From Algibacter pacificus (GTDB lineage: Bacteria > Bacteroidota > Bacteroidia > Flavobacteriales > Flavobacteriaceae), in NCBI RefSeq assembly GCF_008033385.1, contig NZ_VOGY01000002.1, positions 186,001 through 250,000 of the forward strand: DNA of 64,000 nucleotides. The letters run 5' to 3'. The notes under the pieces are model-generated. The model made no database searches. It was not told the origin of the DNA and saw nothing but the letters and a program-made list of their open reading frames with translations. A program made the position numbers and the translations under genes. This document shows positions 25,521 through 37,707 of this stretch, one piece after another (the first letter of the stretch is position 1; the number at the start of each line of letters is the position of its first letter).

Positions 25521-27659
25521 ATGACAATTCGTAAAATTATTCTAACATCAATACTCATAGTATTAACAAGCATAGGTTGGAGTCAAACCTCATCAAAAGA
25601 AGATCAGGATATCTATAATATTATTAATCAATTAACAGAAGAAGAAAAAGTAAGCCTTCTTCATGGGTTTATTTCAAATAATAAACAAAAACGATTTGAA
25701 AGTGGCGGTATTCCTAGATTAAATATTCCTCCAATAAAGATGTTAGACGGCCCTGTTGGTTTGCGTGATTTTGATAAAAATCAACACACCACAGCTTTAC
25801 CATCTACGCTAGCTTTATCCTGTACTTGGGATACCATAGCTGTTAGAAATTATGCAAATGTTTTGGCTAACGAAATGGTTTCGCTAGATAAGCAAGTTTT
25901 ATTTGGACCAGGAATAAATTTAATGCGATCTCCTTTAGGAGGAAGAAACTTTGAATATATGGGCGAAGATCCTTATTTAACAGGAACTCTTGCAAATGTA
26001 TATATTAAGGAGCTACAAAAACATAATATAGCTGGTTGCGCCAAACACATTGTAGCAAACGATATTGATGGTTTGCGCCATTTTATTAGCTCTAAACTAG
26101 ACGAAAGAACATTACGAGAACTACATCTTTTTCCTTTTGAGAATGTTATAAAAGATGCTAATGTTTGGACTATTATGGCTGGGAACAACCTTGTAAATGG
26201 TAAACATGTAGCAGAAAACACAACCATACTTAACTCTATTTTAAGAGATGAATTGAATTATGATGGTATTGTAGTAAGTGATTGGAGAGCGGCCTATACG
26301 CCCTTAGCTAGTTTTGTAGGTGGATTGGATATGAGTATGGGAATCTGTGCTTATGTTTATGGAAACGGAGATTTATTAAAACTGGTTAATAATGGAACGA
26401 TTAAGCATAAAGCGTTGAATGATCGTGTTTTTCGGGTATTAAAACTGTATCAGCGAACCGGTCTTTTAGAAAAGAAAAATAATAAAAAACCCTTTAAGGT
26501 TAATACACCAGAACATAAAAAGGTAGCTCTAGAAACCGCCAGTCAAGGTATGGTTTTGTTAAAAAATGAAAATAAACTTTTACCACTAAAAGTAAATGAT
26601 TATGATAAAATAATTGTTACAGGTCCAGCTTTAAATCATGTGGCCTTTGGAAAAGGATCGAGTAGAGTAGACTCAGAGTTTTCATTAACCCCACTTGCTG
26701 GTTTAATTAGTACATATGGCAAAAATAAAATAATAGAAATAGCAGATATTGAGACGGTAGATAAAAAAACGCTCAATACATATGAAACTTTAAAATATCC
26801 GGTTTTATACTTTGCCGAAGGAGGGCAAGGCAGCGAAGGACACGATATGAAAACGTTAGTATTACCTAATAATCAAAGCGAATCTATTAAAAAATGGAAT
26901 AAAAAGTTTTCAACCGCTGTAATTGTTCAATCTGCTAGTGCGTTCGAAACTAGTTCATGGGAAACTGATACAGATGCTATTTTAAGTGCTTGGTATTTGG
27001 GGCAATCAGCAGGAGATGCTATTGCACAAGTTTTAAGTGGGCAAACAAACCCTGGAGGAAAACTAAGTTTTACAATAGCTAAAAACTTAAATGATTATGC
27101 GCCACACGCTTTAGATACTTGGCCTCCTCAAGCAATTATTAATCCAGCTCCAATTAAGGCTTCTTTTAAGGCAGAAGAGCGTTTTGCTTTACATGGTTAC
27201 GATATGGATTATAAAGAAGGTGTGCTTTTAGGATATAGATGGTTTGATACAAAAGGTATTAAGCCTGCTTATGAGTTTGGTTTTGGATTAAGTTACACCA
27301 GCTTTAAACTTTCAGATTTTAAAGTTGAAGTAAAAAATTCAAATAAAGAAAATCCACAAATTCATATTTCAGGAAAAATTACCAATATCGGCTCGGTTTC
27401 GGGAAGTGAGGTTATTCAGGTTTATGTAAGCGATCTGCAGAGTACTGTTATTAGGCCTACAAAAGAGTTGAAGGCGTTTAATAAAATTAAGCTAGCTCCT
27501 AATGAAAGTAAAATATTTTCTTTTAATTTAACAAAAGAGGCTTTTGCTTTTTGGGATGTGCAAACTCATGGTTGGAACGTAGAGGAAGGCAAGTTTGTAA
27601 TTTCTATAGGTACATCTTCGCATCAAATAAAGCATCAAGATATTGTGAATCTGGACTAA
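25521..27659 (+). CDS. GH3 family beta-glycosidase
   Basis: The 712-residue exported enzyme has a signal peptide, the GH3 TIM barrel (about 30-320), the alpha/beta sandwich domain (about 340-560) and a C-terminal fibronectin-III-like domain (about 600-700). The nucleophile is D254 in GIVVSDWR. RNFEYMGEDPYLTG, AKHIVAND and DERTLREL match the substrate-binding loops. GH3 enzymes remove terminal beta-linked glucose, xylose or N-acetylhexosamine. It ends the third sulfatase unit, just before a strong terminator, and probably finishes oligosaccharide degradation in the periplasm. Exact sugar specificity is not determined. Confidence 0.93.
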   Translation: MTIRKIILTSILIVLTSIGWSQTSSKEDQDIYNIINQLTEEEKVSLLHGFISNNKQKRFESGGIPRLNIPPIKMLDGPVGLRDFDKNQHTTALPSTLALSCTWDTIAVRNYANVLANEMVSLDKQVLFGPGINLMRSPLGGRNFEYMGEDPYLTGTLANVYIKELQKHNIAGCAKHIVANDIDGLRHFISSKLDERTLRELHLFPFENVIKDANVWTIMAGNNLVNGKHVAENTTILNSILRDELNYDGIVVSDWRAAYTPLASFVGGLDMSMGICAYVYGNGDLLKLVNNGTIKHKALNDRVFRVLKLYQRTGLLEKKNNKKPFKVNTPEHKKVALETASQGMVLLKNENKLLPLKVNDYDKIIVTGPALNHVAFGKGSSRVDSEFSLTPLAGLISTYGKNKIIEIADIETVDKKTLNTYETLKYPVLYFAEGGQGSEGHDMKTLVLPNNQSESIKKWNKKFSTAVIVQSASAFETSSWETDTDAILSAWYLGQSAGDAIAQVLSGQTNPGGKLSFTIAKNLNDYAPHALDTWPPQAIINPAPIKASFKAEERFALHGYDMDYKEGVLLGYRWFDTKGIKPAYEFGFGLSYTSFKLSDFKVEVKNSNKENPQIHISGKITNIGSVSGSEVIQVYVSDLQSTVIRPTKELKAFNKIKLAPNESKIFSFNLTKEAFAFWDVQTHGWNVEEGKFVISIGTSSHQIKHQDIVNLD

Positions 27660-27884: not shown

Positions 27885-30800
27885 ATGGCATTATATCAAA
27901 CCTCAGTTTTAAAACAGCACATATCTTTACAAGACAAAGACCTCGTAAATAAAGCGTATAAAAAATACACTAAGTATTTCTTAAACCCAACTATACAAGA
28001 CAATATACGCAGTTCTAAAGAAGAAGAATATCAAGGCATATTTCTTACCGAACTCTTTGCAAACATATTAGGGTACACCTTAAAACCAAATGCCGATTTT
28101 AATTTAGTTGCTGAATATAAAAATCAAAATAACGCACGTAAAGCCGATGGTGCCATATTAAATAACGATGTTGCTATTGGTGTTATAGAATTAAAAGGTA
28201 CAAACACCAAAGACCTAGAAAGCATACGTAAACAAGCGTTTGATTATAAAGCCAATCAAAAAGGCTGTATTTATGTTATCACCTCAAATTTTGAAAAACT
28301 ACGTTTCTATATTAACGATGCTACAGAATTTGAAGAATTTAATTTATTCGAACTCTCCTTAGAACGTTTTGAATTATTATATCTATGTTTACAAAAGGAT
28401 AATATATTAAATAACGTACCCTTAAACATTAAAGAAGCGTCCGTAGTTATAGAAGAACAAATAACAAAACAATTCTATAAAGACTATTCTGTATTTAAAC
28501 GTGAATTATATCGCGATTTAGTAAAGCGCAATGCAAAACCTTTAAAAGCAAAAGCATCTAATGTCACCTCGAGCGCAGTCGAGAGGTCTCAAGAAGAACA
28601 ACTAGAACTACAACGTTTAGAAAAAAACGTGAAGCTTACCCTCTTTAAAAAGTCTCAAAAATTAATAGACCGTTATTTGTTTATCTTCTTTGCCGAAGAT
28701 AGAGGTTTACTTCCTGCAAACAGCACACAACAAATATTAGATAAATGGAAAGACGATGTAGATTTTGGCGACGATAGACCACTATACACACTATTTAAGC
28801 AATACTTTAATTTCTTAGATCAAGGAAGAGCAGGAACAGCCAAAAGAGCCGAAATATACGCTTATAACGGTGGTTTATTTAAAGAAGATAAAACCCTTGA
28901 TAGTTTAGAAATTGATAGTGAACTATTATTTAAGCATACCAGTAAATTAGCAGCTTACGATTTTGAAAGCCAAGTTGATGTAAACATACTAGGACATATT
29001 TTTGAAAACTCACTAAACGAGATTGAAAGTGTAAATGCCGAAATTGAAGGTGGCGACTTCGATAAACAAAAATCTAAACGTAAAAAAGACGGTGTTTTTT
29101 ACACCCCTAAATACATTACCAAATACATAGTTGAAAATACCATTGGTAAACTTTGCAACGAAAAGAAAACCGAACTAGGCTTTAAAGAAGAAGAATATTT
29201 TAAAGGCAGAAAGAACAGGCAAAAAGCAACCATTACAAAACTAGTAAACATACTAGACACGTATAGAGATTGGTTGTTGCAACTCACTATATGCGACCCC
29301 GCTTGTGGCTCTGGTGCGTTCCTTAACCAAGCCTTAGATTTTTTAATAAAAGAACATACTTACATCGATGAGTTAAAAACCAAAGTTTTAGGCGGTGGCT
29401 TACAGTTTCCCGACATTGAAAACACCATTTTAGAAAACAATATTTACGGTGTAGATTTAAACGAAGAATCTGTAGAAATCGCAAAACTATCGCTTTGGTT
29501 ACGCACCGCACAACCCCGCAGAAAATTAAACGATTTAAGTAGCAATATTAAATGTGGTAATTCTTTAATTGATAGTAAAGCCGTTGCAGGCGATAAAGCT
29601 TTTAATTGGCAAGAGCAGTTTCCTAAAGTATTTGAAGAAAAAAATAAAAAAGCCTATCATATTACAACGGCCATACACGACAGTCGTACTTCCGATAGGA
29701 TGGTAAAATATAAAGTAAGAGAACGCCGCGATATGGGCACAAACCCCTATCCAAATGTTATTTATTTTACTCCTGAAGACGATTTAATTATTACAAATAC
29801 CATTGCAAATATTGTAAAAGAAGACCAGTTAAACCTATTGGCCTATAATATTTGTGCAGACCATATTCATTTATTATTAGTTTGCCATATAGACGACATT
29901 CCTGCTATTATGCAAAAAATAAAAGGACGCACCTCTTTTGTAAAAGGAAGCAAGGCGCAAAATAAGACGTTCAACAAGAGGCTCAGCAAGGGGCTCAACA
30001 AGGGGCTTAACAAGGGGCTTAAGCCCCTTGCGGAAGCGGAAAAAGAAAAACCAAACAAACCCTTATGGCAACAAAAATACAGCGCGCCTAAAGAAATTAC
30101 CACAACCGAGCAGCTATACAATACTATAAAATACATACAAAACAATAGAGCAAAACACGAATTACCAGAACATAACAAAGACACACAACAACTTATTGAT
30201 GCCATGTGTTGCACACAAGATAAAGCCTTTAATACCGAATTTTCTGGTGGCTTTGATGTGGTTATTGGGAATCCGCCTTATGTACGTAAGCAAGGGTTAA
30301 TGGAACATTATCCTGAAATGTGCGATTACTATGAAAAGAAGTTTCAATCAGCAACCGCAAATTATGATATTTATGCATTGTTTATGGAGAAGTGTTATTA
30401 TCTAATAAATAATTTAGGTATGGTTTCTTTTATTTTGCCTCATAAATTTTTAGTGGCTGATTTTGGAGAAGGTATTAGAAAGTTTTTTAAAGAAAATACG
30501 GCTGTATCGAATTTAGTACACTTTGGGTCTGAAATAGTTTTTGAAGAAGCTTCAACATATACTTGTATTGTAGATTTAACTAAAACAGTAAAGCAAAAAG
30601 TGAACTTTAAAAAACTATTACCAAGTGAAGTTTTTGAGCCTTTTATTTGGGACACAATGTCTTATTCTAATTTATCAGAAAAAAATTGGGATTTACAAAG
30701 TGAACAGGTTTTTGATGTAATTGATAAGCTAAAAGAACAGCCTTATATTGTTGGAGATATTTTTAATACAATTTTTCAAGGACTAGCGACAAGTCTCGAT

Positions 30801-31805
30801 TCTGTTTATGTTTTTGAAGGAGTTGACAAAGGAAGCTATGTAAAAGGATATAATTCTAAATTTGATTATCACTTTGAAATTGAAAAATCAATAGTCAAAC
30901 CATTTATTAAAGGTAATGAAATATCAAAAAATAAAAATTTAAAAAATATACATTACGTATTATTTCCTTACGAAAATGGTACAGCAGTAAGCGAAGAATA
31001 TATACAACGGGAATTACCTAAAACGTATTCTTACTTAAAACATTTTGAAAAGGAAATACGAGGAAGAGAGAGAGGTAGAATGGATATTGATGAAGGTTGG
31101 TATTTATATATTTACCCTAAAAGCTTGACTAAATTTGGTAAACCTAAAATAATGACACAAGAAATTTCTTTAGGCTGTAATATGACTTATGATGAAAACG
31201 GAGAGTTTTATCATCCTACAACAATTTATTCCTTTGTTAAAAATGAAAAATTCAAAGTTGATGATAAGTACTACTTAGGGATATTAAATTCTAAAGTAAT
31301 GTGGTTTTTTCTAAAAAACACAGGAACAGAGTTACGTGGTGGTTATTTTAGATTTAAAACTAATTACTTAAAACCATTTCCTTTACCTGAAATTTCAGAA
31401 AATAATCAAGAATTAATTGATAAAGTAAATTTTCAATTAGATAACAATAAAATATTTCAAGCTCAAAATAATAAGTTTATAAAATATTTAGATTCTCAAT
31501 TCAGTTTACAAAAACTATCCAAAAAACTACAAAACTGGCACGAATTAGAATTTGGCGACTTCATAAAAGAGTTAAACAAAGCCATAAAAGCAAACAATAA
31601 ACTACGTGTTAAAGAGGATTTAGCAGAAATACCAACCCTAACCAAAAAAGATGAGTTTGAATGGTTAGACCTCTTTGAAGAAAACAAACAAAAAGCACAA
31701 GCCTTACAAACCCAAATTAACCAAACCGATAAAGAAATAGACCAAATGGTGTATGAGTTGTATGGGTTAACGGAGGAGGAAATTAAGATTGTGGAGAATT
31801 CTTAA
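27885..31805 (+). CDS. Type IIG (Eco57I-like) restriction-modification protein with inserted Y1/HUH transposase domain
   Basis: One 1306-residue chain appears to hold the whole R-M system. The N-terminal nuclease has D88 and E102-L-K104 (PD-D/ExK). The N6-adenine methylase has motif I DPACGSG (from D471) and motif IV NPPY (796-799), with a target-recognition region and helical tail after about 900. Between motifs I and IV, about residues 586-785 do not belong to the family. They read as a RAYT/IS200-type Y1 transposase: YHITT, ADHIHLLL with HUH H660/H662, IMQKIKGR, LWQQKY and TIKYIQNNR with Tyr750. The flanks (QEQFPKVFEE and GGFDVVIGNPPY) join naturally if it is removed, so the insert is in frame. 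A REP-like palindrome and a 12-bp repeat cluster also lie inside the ORF. The upstream terminator isolates it from the glycan operon. Confidence 0.88.
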   Translation: MALYQTSVLKQHISLQDKDLVNKAYKKYTKYFLNPTIQDNIRSSKEEEYQGIFLTELFANILGYTLKPNADFNLVAEYKNQNNARKADGAILNNDVAIGVIELKGTNTKDLESIRKQAFDYKANQKGCIYVITSNFEKLRFYINDATEFEEFNLFELSLERFELLYLCLQKDNILNNVPLNIKEASVVIEEQITKQFYKDYSVFKRELYRDLVKRNAKPLKAKASNVTSSAVERSQEEQLELQRLEKNVKLTLFKKSQKLIDRYLFIFFAEDRGLLPANSTQQILDKWKDDVDFGDDRPLYTLFKQYFNFLDQGRAGTAKRAEIYAYNGGLFKEDKTLDSLEIDSELLFKHTSKLAAYDFESQVDVNILGHIFENSLNEIESVNAEIEGGDFDKQKSKRKKDGVFYTPKYITKYIVENTIGKLCNEKKTELGFKEEEYFKGRKNRQKATITKLVNILDTYRDWLLQLTICDPACGSGAFLNQALDFLIKEHTYIDELKTKVLGGGLQFPDIENTILENNIYGVDLNEESVEIAKLSLWLRTAQPRRKLNDLSSNIKCGNSLIDSKAVAGDKAFNWQEQFPKVFEEKNKKAYHITTAIHDSRTSDRMVKYKVRERRDMGTNPYPNVIYFTPEDDLIITNTIANIVKEDQLNLLAYNICADHIHLLLVCHIDDIPAIMQKIKGRTSFVKGSKAQNKTFNKRLSKGLNKGLNKGLKPLAEAEKEKPNKPLWQQKYSAPKEITTTEQLYNTIKYIQNNRAKHELPEHNKDTQQLIDAMCCTQDKAFNTEFSGGFDVVIGNPPYVRKQGLMEHYPEMCDYYEKKFQSATANYDIYALFMEKCYYLINNLGMVSFILPHKFLVADFGEGIRKFFKENTAVSNLVHFGSEIVFEEASTYTCIVDLTKTVKQKVNFKKLLPSEVFEPFIWDTMSYSNLSEKNWDLQSEQVFDVIDKLKEQPYIVGDIFNTIFQGLATSLDSVYVFEGVDKGSYVKGYNSKFDYHFEIEKSIVKPFIKGNEISKNKNLKNIHYVLFPYENGTAVSEEYIQRELPKTYSYLKHFEKEIRGRERGRMDIDEGWYLYIYPKSLTKFGKPKIMTQEISLGCNMTYDENGEFYHPTTIYSFVKNEKFKVDDKYYLGILNSKVMWFFLKNTGTELRGGYFRFKTNYLKPFPLPEISENNQELIDKVNFQLDNNKIFQAQNNKFIKYLDSQFSLQKLSKKLQNWHELEFGDFIKELNKAIKANNKLRVKEDLAEIPTLTKKDEFEWLDLFEENKQKAQALQTQINQTDKEIDQMVYELYGLTEEEIKIVENS
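28566..28587 (+). repeat. REP-like palindrome inside the R-M gene
   Basis: ACCTCGA-GCGCAG-TCGAGAGGT is an imperfect hairpin with one bulged base. It is GC-rich against its surroundings and is translated in frame as about residues 228-235. From memory it resembles a short dispersed palindrome common in flavobacterial intergenic regions; copy number was not checked. Confidence 0.6.
29652..30239 (+). mobile_element. In-frame Y1/HUH (RAYT-like) domain insertion
   Basis: This is the segment of the R-M gene encoding the complete IS200/RAYT-type domain. It has the HUH pair, the KGR helix and the catalytic tyrosine, about 195 residues, normal for a stand-alone TnpA/RAYT protein. It has no stop or start of its own and keeps the host frame. 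Whether it still acts as a nuclease, or is a domesticated or intein-like passenger, cannot be told. Confidence 0.7.
29970..30033 (+). repeat. Four 12-bp tandem repeats plus 18-bp palindrome
   Basis: Units TTCAACAAGAGG, CTCAGCAAGGGG, CTCAACAAGGGG and CTTAACAAGGGG run head to tail. They end in the perfect palindrome AAGGGGCTTAAGCCCCTT (30012-30029). In protein they give repeated LNKG-type units between the KGR helix and the WQQKY strand of the HUH domain, so they probably form a flexible loop. Confidence 0.85.
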
Positions 31806-32704: not shown

Positions 32705-35700
32705 ATGAAAAAAAACCATTTATTTTTACTAATGTTATCAATTTCTTGGTGCTCTTTCTCTCAAAATTTAATATCGGGAGTAGTCAAGGATAATTCTGGA
32801 CCTATGCCAGGTGTTAACATCTTAGAAAAAGGAACGTCAAATGGAGTGGTAACAACTTTTGATGGAACATATGAGATAACCACTGCTAAGAACGCTATTC
32901 TAGTTTTCTCGTATCTCGGTTATAAGGTTAAAGAAGTAGAAGTATCCAATGAGCAAAATATTAATGTTGTAATGACAGTAGACACCGAAAGTCTTTCAGA
33001 AATTGTTGTTGTTGGATATGGGAGACAGAAAAAGGAAAGTGTTTTAGGAGCAATTAACCAAGTTAAAGGGGAAGACGTGGTAAATTCAGGATCTCCCAAT
33101 ATAGTAAATGCCTTAAATGGAGTATCACCAGGACTAAATGTTGTTCAATCTTCTGGACAACCTGGGGCAGATGAAGGACAAATATTTATTAGAGGGAATG
33201 CAAATCCTTTAATATTAGTAGATGGTGTTGAAATTGTAGGTGGGTTTTCCAATATTGACCCTAGGGATGTTGAAAGTATAAGTACTTTAAAAGATGGAGC
33301 AGCAACAGCTGTTTATGGTATTAGAGGTGCTAATGGCGTAATTATTATAACAACCAAACGAGGTAAAATAGGAAAACCTAAAGTCAGTTTTAATAGTCAA
33401 TTTGCAGTTAAAACAGTACAGAATTCACCAGATATGTTAAATGCCTATGATGCACAAAACGCCCTTAACGTAGGTATTTTAAATGATCAAATGTATACAG
33501 GAGGATATTCCTCTGAAGAAGATTTAGCACATTGGGCTAGTGGTGATTTACCATATATCTATCCAAATACAGATTGGCAAGACACGTTGATAGAGGATTA
33601 TGCCTTTAGTACAACTCAAACGGTGTCATTAAGAGGTGGAAATGATTTTGTTAAATATTATGCCTCTGCTGGATATTTAGAGGAAGGCGATATTACTAAA
33701 ACCGTAAAGTTATTTAATTATAATCCGGATTTTAAATTTCAGAGATATTCGTTTAGAGGAAATTTAGATTTTACATTAACAAAATCAACACGACTAAAAA
33801 CAAGTATTAGTAGCCGTTTAGAGGATACAAACCAACCAGGAAATACTGGAAATGCTAATTTTATAAAATTATATCAATCAGCTCCAGGTGGTTTGGTGCC
33901 TATATACCCAGCCGAAATAATGGAACAATATCCAGATCCTTTATACCCTGATGGTTTTTCAGAATATAGGTTTGGTGCAGGTGTTAACTTGTATAGTAGT
34001 ATAAATGCAACAGGAGCTTTGAACGCTTTAAAAACAGTATTCTCAATAGATTTTGAATTAGAGCAGGATTTAGATTTTATTACCGAAGGTTTAATGTATA
34101 CAGGTAAGTATAATTACGTTAGTAGTTATACTACTAAAAGTGATTTTGATTTAAGTAATAGTGAAGCAGGAAGAATTGATACTTATACTTTGAATAGAGA
34201 TGGTAGTTGGTTTTCTTTTGAAGGTAGAAATTATGAACGTCCTACAGAATTTTTTCATAATAATGAAAGCATCACTTATAATCAAGAAATTTCATATTAC
34301 AGAGGGCAGCTTAATTATAAAAAATCTTTTAATAATCATAATGTTACTGGATTGGCTATTTTTAGCCGTAGTAAACGTGTTACAGGTACAGAATATCCTT
34401 ATTTTAACGAAGATTGGATAGGGCGTTTTACCTATGACTATAATTCACGTTACTTTTTTGAAGCAAGTGGTGCTTATAACGGAGATGAAACTTTTGCAAA
34501 AGGACAGCGTTTTAAGTTTTTCCCATCGTTTGCATTAGGTGCAAATTTAGCAAAAGAAAATTTTGTAAAAAATACAATTCCCGTACTTAATAATTTTAAA
34601 GTTAGATATTCATATGGACAAACAGGAGATAAATCCGGTTTAGGAAATAATCGTTGGCAATATTTAAGTTTTTATGATAATATTAAAAGTAATCACTTAA
34701 GAAACAGATATTATTTTGGAGAAAATATAAACACACCTCTTACGATTATTGGAGAATCTCAAATAGGGAATACAGAATTAACTTGGGCTACAGTTACCAA
34801 ACAAAATATAGGAGTTGATTTTGGTGTTTTTAAGAATAAATTTTCAGGTTTTGTAGAGTTTTTTAAAGATGAAAGAGAGGGCTTAATTGGTAGGCCTACT
34901 GCCGCTGTACCAAGTTATTTTGGTTCATCAGTTTCGTTACCTTATGCAAATTTAGGAGCTTCAGAAAGTCATGGTTACGAGGTGTCTTTAACTTATAAAA
35001 ACAAAACCAGTGGTGGGTTTAGTTATGCTATTACTGGATTTTATGGCTTTAATGAAAACAGAGTCGTTATAAGCCCCGCAGATGGTGCTGGAACACCAGA
35101 GTATTCAAAATTAGAAGGAAAACCAGCAGGAACAACAGCTTTATTACAAACAGATGGGTATTTTCAAAATATAGATGAATTGCTAAATTATCCAGAATTT
35201 GCTGGAAACCCTGGATTGGGCGATTATAGATATGTAGATTATAATGCTAACGGAACCGTGATAGGTAACGATTTACAAGATCAGGTTCGATTTGATTTAC
35301 CAACATCTCCAAAAAACAGTTATAGTTTTAAATTAAACTTAGGATACAAACGTTGGTCTTTAAGTGCCTTGATAAATGGTATTAAAGGTCATAAAGGGTT
35401 GGTGAATAGTACGCTGGCTTATGCGTTGCCAAGTGGAGAAGCAACAGGAAGATACGATCAGTTAGATTACTGGACACCTAGTAATCCAGATGCAGCATAT
35501 CCCGCATTGCATAAAAGTATAAGCAACCCAAACTTAAATGCAGGAACTACTGCTAGAATTATAAATTTAGATTATATCAAATTAAGAAGTTTAAACTTGG
35601 CTTACAACTTTGATATGAGTAAAAGTAATAGTATCAGTGTTTTAGAGGTTTATTTGAATGGGAATAACCTTTTTACTATTTCAGATATTGATTATGGCGA

Positions 35701-35773
35701 TCCTCAAGGTAATTCAGCAGGTAGTTATCCTATTTTGGCTAGGTTTAATTTAGGGCTAAATATAAGTTTATAA
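32705..35773 (+). CDS. SusC-family TonB-dependent transporter
   Basis: The 1022-residue protein has a signal peptide (about 1-20), a carboxypeptidase-regulatory-like domain (ISGVVKDNSGPMPGVNILEK, to about 95) and TonB-box-like SEIVVVGYG. The plug has FIRGNANPLILVDGVE and TLKDGAATAVYGIRGANGVI, and a beta-barrel ends in GLNISL. It is the first gene of a five- to six-gene unit containing two SusC/SusD pairs. SusD follows after 11 bp. It is clearly divergent from the first SusC of the window, so it probably carries a different oligosaccharide of the same polymer. Confidence 0.95.
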   Translation: MKKNHLFLLMLSISWCSFSQNLISGVVKDNSGPMPGVNILEKGTSNGVVTTFDGTYEITTAKNAILVFSYLGYKVKEVEVSNEQNINVVMTVDTESLSEIVVVGYGRQKKESVLGAINQVKGEDVVNSGSPNIVNALNGVSPGLNVVQSSGQPGADEGQIFIRGNANPLILVDGVEIVGGFSNIDPRDVESISTLKDGAATAVYGIRGANGVIIITTKRGKIGKPKVSFNSQFAVKTVQNSPDMLNAYDAQNALNVGILNDQMYTGGYSSEEDLAHWASGDLPYIYPNTDWQDTLIEDYAFSTTQTVSLRGGNDFVKYYASAGYLEEGDITKTVKLFNYNPDFKFQRYSFRGNLDFTLTKSTRLKTSISSRLEDTNQPGNTGNANFIKLYQSAPGGLVPIYPAEIMEQYPDPLYPDGFSEYRFGAGVNLYSSINATGALNALKTVFSIDFELEQDLDFITEGLMYTGKYNYVSSYTTKSDFDLSNSEAGRIDTYTLNRDGSWFSFEGRNYERPTEFFHNNESITYNQEISYYRGQLNYKKSFNNHNVTGLAIFSRSKRVTGTEYPYFNEDWIGRFTYDYNSRYFFEASGAYNGDETFAKGQRFKFFPSFALGANLAKENFVKNTIPVLNNFKVRYSYGQTGDKSGLGNNRWQYLSFYDNIKSNHLRNRYYFGENINTPLTIIGESQIGNTELTWATVTKQNIGVDFGVFKNKFSGFVEFFKDEREGLIGRPTAAVPSYFGSSVSLPYANLGASESHGYEVSLTYKNKTSGGFSYAITGFYGFNENRVVISPADGAGTPEYSKLEGKPAGTTALLQTDGYFQNIDELLNYPEFAGNPGLGDYRYVDYNANGTVIGNDLQDQVRFDLPTSPKNSYSFKLNLGYKRWSLSALINGIKGHKGLVNSTLAYALPSGEATGRYDQLDYWTPSNPDAAYPALHKSISNPNLNAGTTARIINLDYIKLRSLNLAYNFDMSKSNSISVLEVYLNGNNLFTISDIDYGDPQGNSAGSYPILARFNLGLNISL

Positions 35774-35784
35774 TATAAAATTTA

Positions 35785-37707
35785 ATGATCATGAAAATAA
35801 ATAGATATATATGTAGTGTTATAATCTTCGCTAGTTCATTTGTTAGCTGTGAAGATTATTTGGATAAAGTACAAGAATTTGAAGGACTAAATCAAGAAGA
35901 CGTTTTTGAAGATATACTTTTAGCAAGAGACTTTTTGGATGGTGGCTATGGGTATTTGTTAACAGAAATGAGTGCGCGTGGAGGAAATAACAAACAGTCA
36001 GATTATTTACCAGGAATGACCATGTCTGGAGAAGGTTATCCAGGGAGAGTTAATAGCAGTGTTCCGGAACTGTATAATTTTTATGCACAAGGAGACTACT
36101 TAAGTTTAATGAATCGTGGATTTACAGCAACACAATCTCCCAATTTTGTAGAGCGGTATTCTTTCAGCTGGAAAGGAATTAGAATAGTTAACAGTTTTTT
36201 GGAGAATGCAGATAGAATTAATAACGCAAGCGAAGAAGATGTAAACAATCTAAAAGGTCAAGCTTATTTTTTAAGAGCCTATTACTATCATTTAATGACC
36301 AAACGCCATGGGGGACTTTATTATTTAAAGGAAAATTTAAATTTAAACGAATCCCTAGATAAAAACAGAGAATCCTATGCCTCTAACTTAGCCGATATGC
36401 TTGAAGATTTAGATTTAGCAATTGATTTGTTACCTATAGATTGGTCTTCTGAAAATGTTGGTAGACCCACAAAAGGAGCAGCTATGGCTTTAAAATCTAG
36501 AGTAACATTATTTGGGGCAAGTCCTTTAGCTAATACAACTAACGATGTACAAGCATGGCAAGATGCGGCTATAGCCGCATCTGATTTAATTCAGTTTGCT
36601 AATACAAATGGCTTATACAACTTGGCAGATGCCAGTGCAGCAAGTGGGTTAGATGTGGGGCATGATGGAGCAGATCTTTTTTTAGCAGAGCCAGAAGAAT
36701 TAGCTCCCTATAGAAATATTTTTGTTGGACCAGGTATTCAGAAAACTATTCCAGATGAAGTTATTTTTATGGAAGTTAATGAAATAGTAGAAAACGTGTT
36801 TAAAAACACTATCAACCCTATACCTAGGCTCACCCTAACTAGTGGGTTTGATACTATGAAAGGAAATGGCCGTCCAATGAATATTGGTGCCTTGGCTAAT
36901 TTTGTAGATAAGTTTGAGACTAAAAGTGGTTTAGCTATAGAAGACGATACGAGTTATAATCCACAAGAACCATTTATTAATAGAGATCCCAGATTTTATA
37001 ATGCTATATTATTTGATGGTGTAGCATGGGATGTTACAACAGCTGGGCCATTAAATAAGACAGGATTTGTTGATTTGGCTGTTGTTAATGAGGAGTATGA
37101 ATATGGAATAGATTTACATAACCCCAAAACACCTGCAAATTTAACATGGAGGGTACAAAACTTAACCGGCTACCGAATTAGAAAGTGGGTGTCTCATGGA
37201 TTTGGATGGCCTGGCTACAGAAATTTTCATATAAATAATAATGTATTTAGAATGGGAGAAGTGTATTTAAACTATGCAGAAGCTGTAAATGAAGCTTATG
37301 GTCCCAATGGCACTGCTCCAGGATTTAATTTAACGGCATTAGAAGCTGTAAACATGATAAGAAACCGAGTTGGAATGCCTAATGTGAATAGTATGTACAT
37401 AGGATCTAAAGAAGCTTTTAGAGAAAGAATTAGAAATGAACGCGCTGTAGAATTATGTTTTGAAGGAATTAGATATGATGATTTAAGAAGATGGAAAGTA
37501 GCACATTTAGAAGAAAATCTAAAAGTAGAGTTTTTAGAAATGCGTTGGCAAGGAGGAACTAGCGTGTTATACCCAACAGGGTTTAGTTATGACAAAGTAG
37601 AGCAAACTAATTTGAAAAAAACATTTAACGAAAAGAATTATTGGTGGCCAATTCCTAGTTCAGAAATCGAAGCTGTACCAACGTTTGGACAAACCATAGG
37701 TTGGTAA
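35785..37707 (+). CDS. SusD/RagB-family lipoprotein
   Basis: The lipobox FVSC (Cys22) marks a surface lipoprotein. The ATG two codons downstream (35791) is an equally good start. SusD landmarks are GQAYFLRAYYYHLMTKRHGG, RPTKGAAMALKSRVTLFGAS, RMGEVYLNYAEAV and RNERAVELCFEGIRYDDLRR. At 640 residues it is at the long end of the family. It should cap the SusC barrel encoded directly upstream and bind the glycan. Confidence 0.94.
   Translation: MIMKINRYICSVIIFASSFVSCEDYLDKVQEFEGLNQEDVFEDILLARDFLDGGYGYLLTEMSARGGNNKQSDYLPGMTMSGEGYPGRVNSSVPELYNFYAQGDYLSLMNRGFTATQSPNFVERYSFSWKGIRIVNSFLENADRINNASEEDVNNLKGQAYFLRAYYYHLMTKRHGGLYYLKENLNLNESLDKNRESYASNLADMLEDLDLAIDLLPIDWSSENVGRPTKGAAMALKSRVTLFGASPLANTTNDVQAWQDAAIAASDLIQFANTNGLYNLADASAASGLDVGHDGADLFLAEPEELAPYRNIFVGPGIQKTIPDEVIFMEVNEIVENVFKNTINPIPRLTLTSGFDTMKGNGRPMNIGALANFVDKFETKSGLAIEDDTSYNPQEPFINRDPRFYNAILFDGVAWDVTTAGPLNKTGFVDLAVVNEEYEYGIDLHNPKTPANLTWRVQNLTGYRIRKWVSHGFGWPGYRNFHINNNVFRMGEVYLNYAEAVNEAYGPNGTAPGFNLTALEAVNMIRNRVGMPNVNSMYIGSKEAFRERIRNERAVELCFEGIRYDDLRRWKVAHLEENLKVEFLEMRWQGGTSVLYPTGFSYDKVEQTNLKKTFNEKNYWWPIPSSEIEAVPTFGQTIGW

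Follow-up and report, generated by a model that had tools for sequence, protein, structure and literature searches.

The restriction-modification gene and its insert

The window, that is, the whole 64,000-nucleotide stretch of Algibacter pacificus DNA that was analysed, carries an open frame whose Pfam matches (Eco57I at 5.2e-43, N6_Mtase, TaqI_C and MmeI_Mtase) put an adenine methylase and a specificity domain on one chain, the arrangement of the Eco57I type. The ORF at 27885-31805 is an Eco57I-type IIG restriction-modification protein. Within its methylase part lies an insert of 204 residues, which ends eight residues before the NPPY motif. The features of the locus are the following:

27885..31805, + strand: type IIG restriction-modification gene, host of the insert (open frame, 1306 aa)
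28146..28196, + strand: putative nuclease motif D88...E102-x-K104 (from the sequence)
29295..29315, + strand: methylase motif I, DPACGSG, residues 471-477 (from the sequence)
29634..30245, + strand: the insert, residues 584-787, in whose place the 20 empty alleles compared have two residues
29859..29870, + strand: HUH motif D-H660-I-H662 (DHIH, residues 659-662; alignment of inserts and sequence)
29925..30059, + strand: hypervariable loop that separates the HUH half from the Tyr half and contains repeats of CAAGGGGCTTAA (from the sequence)
30011..30030, + strand: perfect 20-bp palindrome CAAGGGGCTTAAGCCCCTTG, REP-like, translated as KGLKPL (sequence; recoding and locus counts)
30132..30149, + strand: Tyr motif Y750-IQNN-R755 (alignment of inserts and sequence)
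30246..30281, + strand: conserved 3′ flank GGFDVVIGNPPY, including methylase motif NPPY, residues 796-799 (allele comparison and sequence)

The initial annotation had described a Y1/HUH domain nested in an open type IIG frame, and this description stands: all 1306 aa are open and the Y1_Tnp match lies within the methylase domains. Its landmarks (D471, H660/H662, Tyr750 and NPPY at 796-799) are right in the sequence. It had placed the insert at 29652-30239, which is the correct location with a slightly too narrow extent, as the empty alleles give 29634-30245.

D88...E102-x-K104 is a putative nuclease motif of the PD-(D/E)xK type; in the window protein this motif alone is seen, a nuclease domain being absent from the Pfam matches. 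An insert-free Eco57I paralogue (L146) matches HSDR_N. By eye, the neighbours of the restriction-modification gene are glycoside hydrolase-like and SusC/SusD-like (window 25521-27659 and 32705-37707).

Assignment of the insert to the Y1 superfamily

Residues 629-686 match Y1_Tnp with 30.2 bits, over the cut-off of 23, and H660, H662, Y750, N754 and R755 are the same in every one of the 24 aligned inserts. The NCBIfam equivalog REP_Tyr_transpos also matches, at residues 636-764, with 35.7 bits, under its cut-off of 80, a shortfall that would fit an ordinary methylase-family domain or an assembly artefact.

The AlphaFold model of the insert has a mean pLDDT of 72.5 and a pTM of 0.69, its residues 12-37 and 104-141 being under 50. 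The structure prediction, which the initial annotation had proposed, gave modest scores: the IS200/IS605 TnpA chains of ISDra2 and IS608 top the Foldseek list, with a best E of 1.9e-3 at probability 1.00, zero matches at E 0.001 or better, and a TM-score that is only 0.34 for the query and about 0.48 for the target. The RAYT structure 4er8 comes at rank 31 (E 0.14). When methylase and insert are modelled together (pLDDT 73.7, pTM 0.54), the matches are BrxX/PglX and CamA, plus TnpA for the insert part. Y1_Tnp over its cut-off, the invariant residues and the TnpA structures placed first assign the insert, by profile and predicted fold, to the Y1 (TnpA-Y1) HUH superfamily. The insert differs from the IS200/IS605 TnpA, whose fold its model matches, in that no hairpins were found at the element ends and in its motif, which is Y---N as against Y---Q in TnpA.

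Filled and empty alleles

We searched 249 Flavobacteriaceae genomes with the whole protein at E 1e-30. The methylase N-terminal part, to residue 583 at least, is present in 32 of them by count of rows, and only 4 of these 32 have the insert (the genome of the window, G127, G230 and G051). In the other 28, the match ends at residues 583-585, in frames of 923-1126 aa. Twenty empty alleles read straight across the site, through ...FP-x-x-F, two residues that vary, E/A and N/K being frequent, and GGFD(V/I)(V/I)(I)GNPPY, where the window protein reads ...FPKVF, the 204 residues and GGFDVVIGNPPY; the flanking methylase sequence does join without the insert, as had been proposed. The clean empty alleles and the 28 insert-free genomes rule out an ordinary domain of the methylase family. 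Such a domain would have been expected in nearly all family members and without likeness to RAYT or IS200 proteins; instead, few members carry the segment, and Y1_Tnp and TnpA matches were obtained. Together with the in-frame presence of the insert across many separate genomes, and with profile and fold pointing to Y1 transposases, this leaves an ordinary domain or an assembly artefact, in our judgement, next to no probability.

When genome contigs were scanned with the insert, 22 loci were found, 21 of which have it at the identical place in the same methylase, which rules out chance for this observation; the 22nd (L024) is a small separate frame in an Ignavibacteria genome. With a profile of 15 inserts, 5 of 395 Bacteroidota genomes match at E 1e-20, all at this methylase site and including groups f18 and f24. 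The same search, with the E-value limit alone changed to 1e-6, gives 29 matching genomes; besides those five and L098, these contain frames of 129-249 aa that score 46 bits at most. Among 387 family genomes, the 6 matches of at least 73 bits all lie within host frames (five methylases and one CobB), and in the remaining 3 matching genomes the frames are 181-195 aa long and score no more than 42 bits. L098 (group f33, genome G460) carries, at the methylase site of the insert, a Y1 domain that is divergent and comes with a palindrome of a different type, CCCCAAGCTAAAGCTTGGGG; it represents either a parallel insertion or an old divergence.

Neither transposon ends nor a palindrome were seen at the insert borders. 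Plasmids and phages gave no tblastn match to the insert at E 1e-5, and of the 27 stretches of viral contigs that fit a pattern, 0 were confirmed.

Selection and integrity of the frame

The constraint on the insert, whose examination had been suggested together with the structure check, was estimated from ten hand-chosen, overlapping pairs. Where computable, dN/dS is 0.07-0.25 in the HUH half and 0.03-0.31 in the Tyr half (0.03-0.31 over both), 0.03-0.12 in the host N-terminal part, and 0.2-1.6 in the loop. Comparison of these sequences indicates purifying selection on the Y1/HUH core of the insert and, with low values in both, host and passenger both look kept.

The frame is broken within the gene in 4 of the 24 filled loci (L010, L011, L020 and L023), inside the insert in L020 and L023. 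Three of these four are metagenome assemblies, and some of the breaks are perhaps sequencing faults of such assemblies; decay or phase variation may equally account for the broken methylase frames.

A translated palindrome inside the insert

In 23 of the 24 filled loci the insert codes for a palindrome of 20 bp, which is either of the CAAGGG(8)CCCTTG or of the CAATGG(8)CCATTG type; in the 24th, L017, the contig stops before the loop. It is found between the HUH and Tyr halves in 20 loci. In L014, L018 and L056 the strict palindrome lies 3′ of the Tyr, and L014 and L018 also have a weaker loop copy (9 of 10 pairs). The empty loci have it in 0 of 26 cases (120.7 kb, in stretches shorter than many of the filled ones), and the short inserts of f24, three in number, have none. 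Further palindromes are present in the host gene outside the insert in 8 of the 24 filled loci. In these counts the host frame of L088 is unassigned, and L057, on the same contig as L020, is left out.

When 19 loops were randomly recoded with synonymous codons, 15 of them never attained the observed pairing in 2000 trials; the remaining four did so 1, 5, 8 and 20 times in 2000. Across 16 palindromes, two of them from the CobB case described below, 18 cells have changed on both sides and are still paired, and 0 of 500 shuffles were as high. The rows were hand-picked as the palindrome of each locus, so that the large proportion of paired cells in part reflects this choice, and it is the paired changes that are informative. 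Two of the five covariation measures do not stand out, namely the pairs changed on both sides (345 of 500 shuffles as high) and further pair types (415 of 500). These comparisons indicate that the pairing of the palindrome has been kept despite the translation of the stretch.

The palindrome is similar to the REPs of RAYT enzymes. A 5′ GT[AG]G foot was found in 0 of 16 palindromes, and by eye the printed flanks have no common tetranucleotide of that kind.

Insert and host have different histories

A tree of the methylase N-terminal part was built from 24 filled and 20 empty alleles, leaving out the empty rows L038, L039, L042, L052, L053 and L055. On this tree the presence of the insert changes 9 times, 7 of which are forced by firm branches; with shuffled labels the mean is 14.8 changes, and 9 or fewer were needed in 1 of 500 shuffles. 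Holding the filled alleles as one clade costs 1047 log units (p-AU 2.6e-55).

The insert tree alone has only 3 firm inner branches out of 22, and its bootstrap had not settled. Therefore, we relied on topology tests and on a control made of three host segments of the insert's length, whose trees were tested against each other. With 20 taxa, that is, without the partial inserts L017, L020, L021 and L023 and the separate frame L024, the host tree is rejected by the insert data by 240 log units, and the insert tree by the host data by 2170. The host segments differ among themselves by 19-73 log units, with 1 of 6 comparisons short of significance by AU (p 0.052). Insert and host segments, by contrast, differ by 245-271 log units on insert data and by 493-907 on host data. 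The Robinson-Foulds distance is 30 of 34 between insert and host, as against 14-18 within the host.

Individual pairs of alleles are also informative. The filled L019 and the empty L051 are sisters at 100/100 on the methylase tree, and their flanks are 76-96% identical in 35 of 36 windows of 90 bases, the remaining one being at 53%. In L014 and L018, the insert windows share 81-93% of bases, with a dS of 0.45 in both halves, whereas upstream the 18 windows are at 53-81% and dS is saturated. After the insert, the target-recognition part of this pair falls to 31-58%, and the last ~95 residues are again at 82-93% of bases; L014 and L018 being alike both in the insert and in the C-terminal end, the host gene is therefore a mosaic. 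Between L007 and L056, 92% of the N-terminal residues are shared, but only 55% of those of the insert. Taken together, comparison of these alleles shows repeated gain and/or loss at one fixed site and indicates lateral spread of the insert among methylase alleles.

The same data can be set against a reading in which the insert is an inert traveller: a single old insertion would have been lost and regained by ordinary recombination of methylase alleles, and the Y1 activity would serve the upkeep of the palindrome or nothing, without driving the spread. The single site, the conserved flanks and the mosaic host gene speak for it. However, it sits poorly with histories of insert and host that conflict far more than those of host segments among themselves, with a catalytic core that is kept, and with the presence, in 8 of the 24 filled loci, of additional palindromes within the host gene; we think it rather unlikely.

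Related domains and palindromes elsewhere

A second host was found in G076 (L149:899-2761, minus strand), where a Y1 domain of the same clade as the insert extends the C-terminus of CobB in frame (GATase_3 3.2e-39, Y1_Tnp 1.4e-12, 73 bits with the insert profile). One palindrome, CCAATGGGTTTCAACCCATTGG, is translated at the joint and another, CAATGGGGTTAACCCCATTG, runs across the stop codon; a palindrome is also found in frame inside cobB of this genome. The Ignavibacteria relative (L024, genome G273) is a separate gene with an internal stop and two palindromes at that gene.

In the genome of the window itself we noticed a 489-aa frame that joins a RAYT-like Y1 domain to HemF (L002:394-1863, minus strand; G000:C3 near 165892-166224). 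Its Y1 part, N-terminal to HemF (PF01218, 4.6e-137), scores 22.8 bits, just under the cut-off of 23 (26.7 bits in another search), and no ATG is found directly 5′ of the HemF part. Visual inspection shows that a different type of palindrome (ACCTGTCAGGTTT...AAACCTGACAGGT) precedes the Y1 start and recurs, translated, at the joint.

A loose palindrome pattern matched 112 of the 249 family genomes and was too permissive; the strict pattern CAAGGGRNYNNRNYCCCTTG, used instead, is found in 9 of 249, namely 4 of the 4 insert-bearing genomes and 5 of the 245 others (Fisher 8e-7). The five insert-free genomes are G020, G076, G092, G111 and G184, among which G076 has the CobB fusion. This association counts the copy within the insert. 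Away from the methylase gene, G127 alone of the four has copies, and the independent part of the association is therefore weak in the 249-genome sample. Abundant palindromes are ruled out for the genome of the window, which has one strict copy, that of the insert, and two loose ones.

Among the 22 genomes behind L003-L024, which were found through the insert, are rich in Lutibacter and do not form an independent sample, 21 match the strict pattern, the miss (G253) having a CAATGGG variant. Copies away from the methylase gene occur in at least G255, G263, G264, G266, G268, G270 and G272, while genomes such as G252, G254, G257, G258, G259 and G262 have a single palindrome. The number of strict copies goes from 1 in the window's own genome up to 24 in the insert-bearing G270; G273 has 21. 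The copies at other places fall either outside long frames or, in frame, within genes, and restriction-modification genes with in-frame copies include a type ISP protein (L122) and the insert-free Eco57I paralogue (L146). A further palindrome-bearing frame, L123, resembles the nuclease portion of another enzyme of this kind and has no Pfam match. In G270, four tandem palindromes with 44-base spacing lie at a contig end (L117:1495-1651).

The distribution of the domain and of the palindromes bears on whether the insert is a passenger or a functional fusion, two readings that the initial annotation had left side by side. In a functional fusion, the Y1 domain would be a working part of the restriction-modification enzyme kept for defence, for example by nicking or binding structured single-stranded phage DNA. 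The invariant catalytic residues, the low dN/dS, the fact that in Flavobacteriaceae all close relatives of the domain but one sit in this methylase, and the palindromes in other restriction-modification genes would all agree with this. Against it, most methylase relatives lack the domain, including the near orthologue L051 with a similar target-recognition part; a related domain is joined to CobB, a cobalamin enzyme; and the loop is hypervariable. A role in defence sits badly with the natural empty orthologues and the CobB fusion, and we consider a functional fusion unlikely. The passenger is favoured by the patchy presence, the clean empty alleles, the lateral spread and the hypervariable palindrome loop.

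Discussion

We consider it probable, from the comparison of alleles and genomes, that the insert is an in-frame, unspliced RAYT-type element with a REP-like palindrome, which has spread laterally among type IIG methylase alleles at one site. TnpA-REP of E. coli was reported to nick single-stranded DNA in vitro (PMC8266576), and by analogy the Y1 domain of the insert would bind the folded palindrome and nick single-stranded DNA. Such nicking could multiply palindromes. Nicking at or near the locus could also stimulate recombination, in which filled alleles would convert empty ones with the conserved flanks as homology, and the insert's own nicking may in this way drive its spread. The loop before the NPPY strand would tolerate a separate domain, so that the host enzyme keeps working.

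Several observations weigh against this explanation. The trees of host segments differ too, and L014 and L018 share their C-terminal end besides the insert. The borders and the empty alleles have no palindrome, hence no evident nicking target for a self-driven spread. The methylase site is constant, as recombination alone would also give. Frames are broken in 4 of 24 filled loci, palindromes are confined to the insert in the genome of the window and in several more, the f24 forms have none in the insert, and 2 of the 5 covariation measures stay within the shuffles.

The closest enzymes to compare are the RAYT/TnpA-REP proteins and the REPtrons described for them, especially subclass 2.4, with which the insert has in common the HUH/Y1 core and a palindrome tied to the enzyme (PMC6006769). 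In the description of class 2, the Tyr motif is Y---NP and the REP has a 5′ GT[AG]G foot (PMC6006769). The insert differs from these RAYTs in several respects: it has no gene of its own and is an internal domain of a methylase, its copy numbers appear low, its Tyr motif is Y---NR (the Asn kept and the Pro changed to Arg, invariant in 24 rows), and its palindrome CAAGGG...CCCTTG, unlike the class 2 REPs, is without the GT[AG]G foot (PMC6006769). Among the marks of a RAYT, a cognate palindrome at or in the gene was found in 23 of 24 filled loci, in the CobB fusion and in L024, and in none of the three f24 inserts; the Y---NP motif, the GT[AG]G foot and a REP_Tyr_transpos score over the cut-off were not found in the insert. 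Quentin et al. 2018 dropped unexpectedly long proteins as fusions or annotation errors, and the words "methyl", "restriction" and "Eco57I" are absent from the main text of that article (PMC6006769).

The insert also has to be compared with mobile elements that live within protein genes. Inteins with homing endonucleases occupy a fixed site, have empty alleles and spread laterally. The distribution of the insert is like theirs and, in this respect, its early description as comparable to an intein was justified; as to splicing, the comparison fails, as the Pfam matches at E 0.01 include no splicing (Hint) domain, and an intein is thereby rejected. ShiLan, in actinophage DNA methylases, is likewise described as a mobile methylase insertion that is readable in frame and has no splicing domain; like the insert, it has a fixed site and a patchy distribution and has moved between diverged alleles (PMC9957025, PMC11855218). 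In these accounts its nuclease is of the HNH type and in another reading frame, whereas the insert has an HUH/Y1 domain in the host frame and a palindrome (PMC9957025, PMC11855218). The fixed site, the empty alleles and the transfer between diverged alleles that mark a ShiLan-like homing element were all found here, and ShiLan, as described in those reports, is the nearest analogue of a non-splicing mobile methylase insertion. The intragenic REPs and the Rickettsia palindromic elements are likewise described as translated in frame within protein genes; in their case the palindrome alone is in the host gene, whereas the insert brings an enzyme domain too (PMC3733652).

New here, and absent from the initial annotation, are the conserved palindrome coded within the insert and the second host gene, CobB. 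Among the matches listed in our search of open-access papers by title and start of abstract, with subscription papers and preprints outside its scope, no paper on a Y1 domain inside a restriction enzyme was found. To our knowledge, this would be the first in-frame protein passenger based on an HUH nickase.

A bolder reading, which we put forward tentatively and hold to be possible rather than probable, is that of a selfish RAYT without a gene of its own: an unspliced in-frame domain of a host protein, which would home by HUH/Y1 single-strand nicking, in place of the double-strand cut of a homing endonuclease, carry a translated REP and seed palindromes into the host gene and into other genes. 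If this reading is true, that life style would also take in the CobB fusion and, at a greater distance, the RAYT-HemF frame.

The spread of REP palindromes and of their enzymes is described as poorly understood (PMC8266576). Here, a methylase carries a catalytic domain of foreign origin, whose end lies eight residues ahead of the NPPY motif, and a RAYT-like enzyme appears to have moved between alleles at one site, where natural pairs of filled and empty alleles make its activity, its spread and its cost directly testable.
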